Assembly (NCBI RefSeq): GCF_030053415.1
Contig: NZ_JASGBJ010000001.1
Coordinates: 1,054,001-1,118,000, forward strand
Length of the DNA: 64,000 nucleotides
Source: Marinobacter sp. CHS3-4
GTDB taxonomy: Bacteria; Pseudomonadota; Gammaproteobacteria; Pseudomonadales; Oleiphilaceae
Direction of reading: 5' to 3'
The stretch's first letter is position 1, and every line of letters begins with the position of its first letter. The notes under the pieces were generated by a model. That model worked only from the letters and a program-made list of their open reading frames with translations. It did not search any database and was not told the DNA's origin. This document shows, one piece after another, positions 22,755-32,818 of this stretch. A program made the translations under genes and the position numbers.

Positions 22755-23024
22755 TTATTCAACCGACAGGCGGTCTGCGTTCTTCTGAATGGTTTTTGCG
22801 CCAATGCCCTTAACCTTTGACAGGTCCTCGGAAGTCGCAAACGGACCGTTCTCGGTGCGGTAGGCGACAATCGCCTTGGCTTTGGTTTCGCCAACGCCGT
22901 TCAGGCTGGCAAGGGTTTCAACGGTGGCGGTGTTGATGTTGATTACCGCAGGTTCGGCGTGGCTGAAGCCGGACAGCAGGCTGAATACCAGCAGCAAGAC
23001 GGCAATAAGCGGGGCACGATTCAT
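22755..23024 (-). CDS. comEA: ComEA-like helix-hairpin-helix protein
   Basis: An 89-residue protein with a signal peptide (cleavage near SGFSHA-EP) and one ComEA domain of two helix-hairpin-helix motifs (ININTATVETLASLNGVGET and SKVKGIGAKTIQKN). It binds DNA in the periplasm and helps DNA uptake where a competence system exists; the short ComEA-only form is normal in gammaproteobacteria. The ATG at 23024 follows GGAG. A CsrB-like RNA runs toward it from 23333 and might form its leader. Confidence 0.88.
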   Translation of the reverse strand: MNRAPLIAVLLLVFSLLSGFSHAEPAVININTATVETLASLNGVGETKAKAIVAYRTENGPFATSEDLSKVKGIGAKTIQKNADRLSVE

Positions 23025-23107: not shown

Positions 23108-23333
23108 TCTGAAAAGCGCGGTGGAGGGGCGGGGAGTGCACGGAGCCCGGAGCACATTCCATGTGAACCAAAGCCCGTGGCTGACCCCTTGCCTGATCCT
23201 TCAGGCTACGGCACATCCTGTGCGTATCGTCCCTGTCGTTCTTCCCTGGGCTCTAATTCCCTGAGCCTTCCTCCAAATCCCTGGAGGTATCTTCCCTGAG
23301 CCAGCATTCCTTGCTGACTGCTCATCCCTGACA
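23108..23333 (-). ncRNA. CsrB/RsmZ-like CsrA-sequestering small RNA (candidate)
   Basis: Read on the minus strand from about 23333, the transcript carries some twelve GGA motifs, many in hairpin loops. Examples are CAGC-aaGGAat-GCTG, CCTCC-AGGGATT-TGGAGG, GGCTC-AGGGAATTA-GAGCC, GCAC-AGGAT-GTGC, GCCTGA-AGGA-TCAGGC and CACAT-GGA-ATGTG. Repeated A(N)GGA in loops is the hallmark of RNAs that titrate CsrA/RsmA. A TAGAAT -10 element (23345-23340) and a GacA-type box centred 65 bases upstream of the predicted start support a real promoter. A long stem (GGGG-CACGG paired with CCGTG-CCCC) ends near 23131; the 3' end is uncertain because no strong T-run follows. It may instead be a CsrA-controlled leader of comEA. 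Confidence 0.78.
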
Positions 23334-23339
23334 ATTGCC

Positions 23340-23406
23340 ATTCTACGTTCACCCAAAATTACAGAAATCGGACATACGCTCCCAGGTTTGTGAGACATCT
23401 CTTACG
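23340..23406 (-). promoter_or_regulatory. GacA/UvrY-type box and -10 element for the small RNA
   Basis: On the minus strand, CGTAAGAGATGTCTCACA at 23406-23389 matches the GacA upstream activating sequence TGTAAG-N2-AT-N2-CTTACA at 10 of the 14 fixed positions or better, with dyad symmetry. It lies about 65 bases before the predicted start at 23333. A -10-like TAGAAT lies at 23345-23340. The layout is that of Pseudomonas rsmY/rsmZ promoters. Confidence 0.72.
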
Positions 23407-31115: not shown

Positions 31116-32818
31116 TGAAAATCACCAGACAAGCCTACGCCGACATGTACGGCCCCACCGTGGGTGACCGGGTTCGCCTGGGCGACACCGAACTGTGGAT
31201 TGAAGTCGAAAGCGACGCCACCCACTACGGCGACGAAGTAAAATTCGGCGGCGGCAAGGTCATCCGTGATGGCATGGGCCAGAGCCAGCGTGCCGACGAC
31301 ACCGTGATGGACACCGTTATCACCAACGCCCTGATCCTGGACTGGTGGGGCGTGGTCAAAGCCGACGTGGGCCTGCAGAACGGCCGCATCGCCGCCATCG
31401 GCAAAGCCGGTAACCCCGACACCCAGCCGGACGTACAGATCGTCATCGGCCCCGGCACTGAAGTCATCGCCGGTGAAGGCAAAATCCTCACCGCCGGCGG
31501 CATCGACGCCCACATCCACTTCATCTGCCCCCAGCAGATCGAAGAAGCCCTGATGAGCGGCATCACCACCATGCTTGGCGGTGGCACCGGCCCGGCCACG
31601 GGCACCAACGCTACCACCTGTACCCCAGGCCCCTGGCACATCGGCAAGATGCTCCAGGCCGTGGACGACATGCCCATGAACATCGGCTTCCTGGGCAAAG
31701 GCAACGCCAGCCTGCCGGAATCCCTGGAGCTGCAAATCAAGGCCGGCGCCATGGGCCTGAAGCTGCACGAAGACTGGGGCACCACCCCGGCGGCCATCGA
31801 CAACTGCCTGACGGTCGCGGACAAATACGACGTACAGATCGCCATCCACACCGACACCCTGAACGAATCCGGGTTTGTGGAAGACACCCTGGCCGCGTTC
31901 AAAGAACGCTGCATCCACACCTACCACACGGAAGGTGCCGGGGGCGGCCACGCGCCGGACATCATCACCGCGTGTTCCAAGGACTACGTGCTGCCGTCGT
32001 CTACAAACCCCACGCGGCCCTACACCGTGAACACCATCGACGAACACCTCGACATGCTGATGGTGTGCCACCACCTGGACCCGAACATCCCCGAAGACGT
32101 CGCCTTCGCCGACTCCCGCATTCGCCGCGAGACCATCGCCGCGGAAGACATCCTGCAGGACATGGGCGTGATCTCCATGCTGGCGTCTGACTCCCAGGCC
32201 ATGGGCCGGGTTGGGGAAGTGGTGTGCCGCACCTGGCAGACCGCCCACAAAATGAAAGTGCAGCGCGGCCTGCTGCCGGAAGACGAAGAGCGCGGCGCGG
32301 ATAACGTTCGCGCCCGCCGCTACATCGCCAAGTACACCATCAACCCCGCCATCACCCACGGCATCGCCCACGATGTCGGCTCGGTGGAAGTGGGCAAGCT
32401 GGCGGACCTGGTGCTGTGGGACCCGGCCTTCTTCGGCGTAAAACCCGCGCTCATCCTGAAAGGCGGCATGATCGGCGCCGCGCCCATGGGCGATCCCAAC
32501 GCGTCCATCCCCACGCCCCAGCCGGTGCACTACCGCACCATGTTCGGGGCCCTGGGCCGCGCAGCCAGTGCCACCCGCTTGAGCTTTGTCAGCCAGGCGG
32601 CGTTCGATGCCGGCATTGGCAAAGAGCTGGGGCTGAACAGCCCGCTGTCTGCCTGCAAAAACGTGCGGACCGTGCGCAAAGGCGACCTGAAACTGAACGA
32701 CGCCTGCCCGCACCTGACCGTGGACCCACAAACTTACGAAGTGCACGCCGATGGCGAGCTGCTCACCTGTGAGCCCGCCACCGAACTGCCACTGGCCCAG
32801 CGCTACCATCTGTTTTAA
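31115..32818 (+). CDS. ureC: Urease alpha subunit UreC (catalytic)
   Basis: A full-length, 567-residue catalytic subunit. The nickel ligands are present: H133 and H135 (DAHIHF), the carbamylated lysine K216 (GLKLHEDWG), H245, H271 and D359 (ASDSQAMG). The mobile-flap C318/H319 lie in MVCHHLD. It hydrolyses urea to ammonia and carbamate in the cytoplasm. It is coupled to ureB by TAATG overlap. No residue appears damaged. Confidence 0.97.

Follow-up and report, generated by a model that had tools for sequence, protein, structure and literature searches.

Introduction

In E. coli, the RNAs CsrB and CsrC sequester CsrA by means of repeated GGA hairpins, and the mode of action that we propose below for an RNA of Marinobacter is the same. 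In Pseudomonas, the genes for RsmX, RsmY and RsmZ are preceded by a GacA box (TGTAAG-N6-CTTACA), which lies at -75 at rsmY and at -196 at rsmZ of P. aeruginosa (consensus and positions as quoted in an excerpt of PMC4950607). The Rsm RNAs of P. brassicacearum are described, in an excerpt of PMC7911923, as having 6-10 GGA each and several GGA hairpins. RNAs of the CsrB/Rsm class have also been reported from other marine genera (excerpts of PMC9788540, PMC9927453 and PMC5864184). Among these, the Pf1 sRNA of Pseudoalteromonas fuliginea carries a GacA-type box, CGTGAGACATCTCTTACA, as well as 21 GGA and is reported to bind CsrA; as far as the excerpt goes, homologues were apparently not found outside Pseudoalteromonas (PMC9927453). 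CsrR1 and CsrR2 of Alcanivorax dieselolei have other neighbouring genes, and their homologues are reported from Alcanivorax. Pf1 and the two CsrR RNAs are set apart from the RNA presented here by description.

Here we analyse a locus of Marinobacter sp. CHS3-4 within a window of 64 kb (the whole stretch of DNA analysed, 64,000 nt). Judged by its sequence and that of its relatives, the locus very probably encodes a CsrB/RsmY-type, GacA-driven RNA that serves as a CsrA sponge. It resembles RsmX, RsmY and RsmZ in having a GacA box upstream, and it differs from them in being longer (~197 nt), in lying before comEA, in having no Rfam match and in that an intrinsic terminator was not found. The class of RNA is known, whereas its Marinobacter member and the tie to comEA seem undescribed. 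No published description of the RNA was recognised among the papers listed for Marinobacter with CsrB, GacA, CsrA or sRNAs, including the best 12 of 236 results on sRNAs, in a literature that covered a minor part of the subscription papers; a Marinobacter candidate may appear in Kulkarni 2006, the classic paper on predicting such RNAs. No published link between comEA and GacA or CsrA was recognised among the papers listed for it, including the best 15 of 71 and the best 15 of 65 results. An excerpt of Fakhry 2017 states that an intrinsic terminator was required of candidates, so the Marinobacter RNA could have been missed there.

Results

Organisation of the locus

The initial annotation had proposed an unannotated RNA on the minus strand between 23108 and 23406, and reading both strands confirmed the sequence features reported there. 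The GacA box is an 18-bp imperfect palindrome, read from 23406 to 23389 on the minus strand. The 5' end of the RNA was set from the -10 element and the 3' end is that of the last conserved hairpin. The locus comprises the following parts.

23389-23406, minus strand: GacA box CGTAAGAGATGTCTCACA, with 2 mismatches to TGTAAG-N6-CTTACA
23340-23345, minus strand: -10 element TAGAAT, separated from the GacA box by exactly 43 nt
23137-23333, minus strand: predicted CsrB/Rsm-type RNA, 197 nt, with estimated ends
23322-23332, minus strand: 5' site GTCAGGGATGA, with three stem pairs, the outermost unpaired in the CHS3-4 genome
23300-23318, minus strand: hairpin H1, with AAGGA in the loop
23270-23288, minus strand: hairpin H2, with AGGGA in the loop
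23249-23267, minus strand: hairpin H3, with AGGGA in the loop
23227-23250, minus strand: linker with two CAGGGA sites (23250-23241 and 23237-23227)
23211-23224, minus strand: hairpin H4, with AGGA in the loop and 14 of the 48 double-change cells
23191-23206, minus strand: hairpin H5, GCCTG-AAGGAT-CAGGC, nearly invariant
23139-23179, minus strand: 3' hairpin H6, with ATGGA in the loop; it holds 29 of the 48 double-change cells and is not followed by a T-run in the CHS3-4 genome
23025-23136, minus strand: spacer between the RNA and comEA, 112 nt, C-rich and G-poor, in which an intrinsic terminator was not found
22755-23024, minus strand: comEA, a helix-hairpin-helix protein of 89 aa with a signal-peptide-like start (HHH_3, 1.8e-23)

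On its opposite flank the RNA is bordered by a divergent gene for a urtA-like binding protein (Peripla_BP_5). The earlier placement of the RNA between comEA and the urea genes is therefore correct for CHS3-4 but does not describe a conserved setting: of the 30 loci read with 1.5-kb flanks, 9 have urtA next to the RNA, and comEA alone is kept while the other flank changes. A further element, GGGGTCAGCCACGG (window positions 23175-23188, minus strand), is almost invariant across the genus, and its first part lies outside the hairpins.

GGA content and conserved structure

The RNA region holds 12 GGA and 9 ANGGA in 205 nt. Nine ANGGA were reached in none of 1000 dinucleotide shuffles (mean 2.16), six GGA in hairpin loops in 3 of 1000 and 12 GGA in 16 of 1000. 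Among all 200-nt segments of the 64 kb, the RNA is also the maximum for ANGGA (9; best of the plus strand, 5), for hairpin-loop GGA (6 against 5) and for GGA (12 against 11). Across 70 Marinobacter loci the mean number of GGA is 12.7, compared with 3.2 TCC on the same strand. The initial annotation had placed about a dozen GGA motifs within short hairpins or next to them, and the count bears this out, with six of the 12 in hairpin loops and the other six in linkers. Many ANGGA and GGA sites, several in hairpin loops, are thus present as in RNAs of the CsrB/Rsm class. All six main hairpins of CHS3-4 show GGA in the loop, and the linkers add further CAGGGA sites. The lone RNA sequence folds with an unremarkable energy (z -1.48, equalled or bettered by 16 of 200 shuffles), and because this energy is not significant we used comparative evidence instead.

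To this end, 33 standard-length RNAs, taken from 45 diverse ones, were aligned, and a structure of nine helices and 44 pairs was written by hand from their consensus. In this structure 95.5% of the cells are paired, compared with 25.5-42.8% for slid partners, a comparison that favours the true register since the structure was hand-written from the consensus. Compensatory stem changes across relatives, which had been suggested as a check, occur among the 33 RNAs: 15 of the 44 pairs change on both sides, giving 48 double-change cells, and none of 500 shuffles matched the real alignment on any of five covariation measures. Besides the cells in H6 and H4, three fall in H3, each from a single sequence. 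No double changes were found in H1 and H5 among the aligned RNAs; H1 varies on one side only and is therefore weakly tested. A conserved secondary structure, as in the CsrB/Rsm class, is accordingly present. Together with the conserved GacA box described below, this stem covariation supports the CsrB/Rsm-type reading of the initial annotation.

Promoter and GacA box

A TAGAAT -10 and a GacA-like dyad had been reported ahead of the RNA, and they are found at 23345-23340 and 23406-23389, respectively. Their spacing had been likened to that of the rsmY and rsmZ promoters; the likeness holds for rsmY (-75), since the 5' edge of the box lies at about -73 from the estimated start, but not for rsmZ (-196). 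When the best box was sought regardless of the -10, 67 of 70 Marinobacter loci had TAnnnT exactly 43 nt after it, and no other distance between 25 and 64 nt occurred in more than 2 of the 70. With the search anchored on the -10, a box with no more than 4 mismatches was found in 67 of 69 loci; the -10 itself is present in 69/69 by construction, so 67/70 is the unbiased figure. Lack of conservation of the box among relatives had been named as something that could overturn the assignment, and these counts speak against it. A further 54 loci gave a box with up to 4 mismatches at 43 nt in 48 cases. A perfect box was found at 44 nt in L179, and none was found at 43 nt in L278, L290, L292, L293 and L294. 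The sequence between the box and the -10 includes another conserved block, roughly GAGCG..T.TCCGATT. A GacA box at a promoter-proximal place, as in GacA/UvrY-activated Rsm sRNA genes, is therefore a regular part of these loci.

In the 3.72-Mb genome, the box followed by a 43-nt spacer and TAGAAT (up to 3 mismatches) has one match, at the RNA locus and with 2 mismatches. A reversed-pattern control (up to 3 mismatches) also gave one match, so the promoter pattern alone is not decisive and the case is carried by its conservation. A sigma-70 scan of CHS3-4 did not list the TAGAAT promoter, and the combined sigma-70 and terminator scan listed nothing on the strand of the RNA.

Putative regulatory partners are encoded in the same genome. 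CsrA is represented by one gene, and GacA scores 300.7 bits against a cut-off of 280; gacA is followed by uvrC- and pgsA-like genes (named by eye). The best BarA/GacS-type kinase reaches 847.9 bits, which is under the cut-off of 890.

Distribution among relatives

A blastn search with a 321-bp query found matches in 101 of 120 same-genus genomes. We oriented and read 70 loci from 69 genomes; the two numbers differ because one genome (G011) has the same sequence near both ends of one contig (L043 and L044), probably an assembly overlap. One locus with a partly deleted RNA (L055) is included in the 70-locus counts and left out of the 69-locus counts. A covariance model of the RNA finds one clear copy in CHS3-4 (165.1 bits) and matches 121 of 124 same-genus genomes, the three misses being 62, 82 and 82% complete. 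It also matches 12 further genomes from six other genera, and in an order-wide sample of 390, searched with stricter filters, no match was found outside the family. Two weak matches, L172 in another genome (21.5 bits, 80 nt) and L177 in CHS3-4 (13.8 bits, 4 GGA), were set aside as chance. Scanning a genome collection for the conserved 3' motif returned 50 stretches, namely 48 from Marinobacter, one from a Zoogloea MAG and one from a Halomonas MAG, the label of the last being doubtful.

The covariance search against Rfam that had been recommended gave no match of this kind. For CsrB, CsrC, RsmY and RsmZ, nothing was found near the locus even when E was raised to 10, and no Csr/Rsm family was found on the window at the gathering threshold. 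At E up to 10 the locus drew only microRNA, Bacillus sRNA and snoRNA models, all far below gathering, and these were rejected. Rfam CsrC reached 17 bits (gathering 61) on an expanded relative, L149, and gave nothing on the window. We therefore assign the RNA to the functional class and not to those Rfam families. The covariance model built here serves where no Rfam model fits. The only match of the window at gathering is 5_ureB_sRNA (31261-31547, minus strand, 124.7 bits), which may simply reflect conserved urease coding sequence.

The length of the RNA in Marinobacter ranges from 132 to 289 nt. Two Marinobacter loci, L066 and L068, have RNAs of 289 and 255 nt through partial duplication or extra AGGA modules. 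Larger still are L149 (genome G149), which has 26 GGA in 405 nt before comEA, and L151 (genome G152), with 34 ANGGA in 810 nt between the -10 and comEA. A titrating RNA would be expected to vary this widely in module number if what counts is how many sites it has.

Linkage to comEA

The RNA had been said to point toward comEA, and the comparison upholds this. In all 70 loci picked by the RNA alone, comEA lies downstream on the same strand, as it does in 53 of 54 further loci, giving 123 of 124. Each of the 121 positive same-genus genomes has at least one RNA-comEA pair; 69 of these genomes belong to the first reading and the other 52 to the second, which with the second copies L170 and L174 makes up the 54 loci. 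One genome (G079) carries two RNA-comEA units (L170 and L171). The single exception is L269 (G083:C43:2077-2271, minus strand), which has a perfect GacA box and the RNA but lacks comEA in the roughly 2 kb downstream. Its genome also contains L174, a copy with comEA and with fewer ANGGA than L269. It follows from L269 that the RNA can stand alone.

We then turned to the other genera of the family, counting as positive a promoter with p of at most 0.04 against shuffles of single letters, which makes the test somewhat lenient. A GacA box followed at 43 nt (42 in one locus) by a -10 was found upstream of comEA in 21 of the 25 loci, representing 11 genera. These 25 comprise 16 loci chosen by comEA alone (12 positive) and nine chosen by the RNA model (9 positive). 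Between the -10 and the comEA start, 19 of the 21 positive loci have 5 to 23 ANGGA. With Marinobacter included, the linkage of the promoter to comEA thus covers 12 of the 16 genera of the family. The negative loci are L208 (g16), L230 (g13), L231 (g6) and L227 (g13), the last having p 0.04 with 4 box mismatches and not being counted as positive. Of the 27 family genomes from outside Marinobacter that lack a model match, the comEA search took in 20; comEA was not found in G139 (g7, 70% complete), and L232-L237 and L263-L267 were left out, 9 of these 11 lying inside frames of at least 334 aa and L235 and L236 inside frames of 210 and 257 aa. L151, a 26th locus outside the 25, has its promoter 810 nt before comEA and is negative with 700 nt of upstream sequence and positive with 1200 nt. 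In other families, none of 33 loci reached p 0.05 for a promoter before comEA; L248, from another family, has a box with 2 mismatches, but any -10 at 43 nt is within chance.

Two loci of one genus (g3), L213 and L215, have the promoter directly before comEA, with 58 nt from the -10 to the ATG and a leader of ~50 nt in which, by eye, one GGA hairpin is seen. In two other species of that genus, L156 and L157 have a CsrB-like RNA with a GacA-type box at loci without comEA.

The 3' end and the spacer

Rsm RNAs usually end in an intrinsic terminator. In Marinobacter the gap between the RNA and comEA is 66-171 nt (median 111), and a simple search found no intrinsic terminator before comEA in any of 69 loci; TTTT occurs within 14 nt of the hairpin in 10 of the 69. 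This feature, usual but not defining for GacA/UvrY-activated Rsm sRNA genes, was thus not found here, and for that reason the RNA may double as a comEA leader. In some other genera, inspection by eye shows terminator-like ends upstream of comEA (L150, L159, L211 and L216), and read-through into comEA would therefore be partial there. C outnumbers G in the 70 nt after the RNA in all 69 loci (means 0.39 and 0.15), and in CHS3-4 the C-minus-G value of these 70 nt is reached by 0.1% of the 70-mers of the window. A C-rich, G-poor spacer would fit Rho-dependent termination, and it may contain a Rho site.

Discussion

The sites, hairpins, covariation, promoter geometry, conservation, CsrA and GacA genes and comEA linkage are observed; from them we infer transcription, GacA dependence, and CsrA binding and titration, as follows. 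Phosphorylated GacA would bind the box (about -73 to -56) and activate the TAGAAT promoter. Several CsrA dimers would be captured by the nine ANGGA sites, which lie in hairpin loops and linkers, and CsrA would be taken off its mRNA targets, freeing those mRNAs. Less surely, part of transcription would continue into comEA, making the sponge the 5' leader of comEA too. In Marinobacter, which is widespread in the sea, the RNA is probably a main antagonist of CsrA; calling it a master RNA of CsrA control, as the initial annotation did, goes further and is our inference, and a second GGA-rich RNA is also present in the genome (see below).

Chance GGA-rich DNA or a coding feature is a most improbable explanation of the locus. 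Short ORFs do overlap the RNA, and one sense frame is open throughout in 20 of 69 RNAs; in the other 49 no sense frame is open throughout, the lengths fall into all three modulo-3 classes (29, 17 and 23 of 69), as expected of a non-coding sequence, and the compensatory stem changes and the absence of nine ANGGA from 1000 shuffles argue in the same direction. Covariation and promoter conservation together rule this explanation out. A different question is what the RNA does for comEA. It could be foremost a 5' leader, that is, part of a GacA-dependent mRNA in which CsrA controls read-through into comEA or its translation, titration being secondary. We consider this possible, if somewhat doubtful. 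It would account for the near-constant presence of comEA on the same strand (123/124 loci, with each of the 121 positive genomes having at least one such pair), the short gap with a terminator found in 0/69, the two units in one genome and the box-43-(-10) arrangement directly before comEA with its ~50-nt leader in L213 and L215. It would also accord with P. putida, where a comEA-like RNA, PP_1813, is among the RNAs bound by Rsm proteins (excerpt of PMC7937890). Against it, a cis switch would not need nine sites within 197 nt, let alone the 34 found elsewhere, L269 has the promoter and the RNA with comEA absent within ~2 kb downstream, and terminator-like ends stand before comEA in the four loci named above.

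The RNA could instead be a mere neighbour of comEA, the sponge ending at its 3' hairpin through Rho and comEA having its own promoter inside the spacer. The excess of C over G after the RNA in 69/69 loci and the occurrence of the RNA without comEA at L269 are consistent with this, and we give it tentative credence, short of favouring it: the linkage persists across 12 genera of the family, with the opposite flank varying, and no sigma-70-like site was listed in the spacer on the RNA's strand (CHS3-4 only, in a scan that also misses the GacA-type promoter). The leader and sponge readings are compatible with each other, and the sponge that we prefer may double as the comEA leader, given the position of comEA in 123/124 loci, the lack of a terminator in the search and the promoter directly before comEA in L213 and L215.

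A more far-reaching proposal, possible if somewhat doubtful, is that in this family one GacA-driven transcript is both CsrA sponge and comEA leader, so that CsrA release and DNA uptake switch on together, and that a short GGA-hairpin leader was the origin of the sponge, or its reduced form in some lineages, the sponge having expanded elsewhere to dozens of sites. If this is true, GacA would directly control comEA, a protein-coding gene; in P. aeruginosa, as Brencic and colleagues are said to have found in 2009, GacA reportedly acts only through rsmY and rsmZ. The ~50-nt leader, the ~200-nt sponge and the arrays of 26 GGA to 34 ANGGA form a natural series for studying how a sponge RNA originates and grows. 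As the tie to comEA is kept in 12 genera, control of DNA uptake by GacA and CsrA is directly testable. In Acinetobacter baylyi, truncation of csrA lowers stationary-phase competence more than 1000-fold (excerpt of PMC12442408); this hint and that from P. putida concern organisms other than Marinobacter.

A second GGA-rich RNA

The same genome contains a second GGA-rich RNA (L176; G000:C1:523917-524064, minus strand), with 14 GGA in 173 nt; an Rfam search of it at E up to 0.5 gave no match. Its best GacA box in CHS3-4 has 4 mismatches, and from its sequence it is possibly a GacA-independent Csr RNA. Covariation is weak (4 double-change cells in 3 pairs), so we claim no structure for it. The RNA is preceded by a TATAGT -10, shows an intrinsic terminator by eye in most of 19 aligned sequences and has a blastn match in 112 of 120 same-genus genomes.
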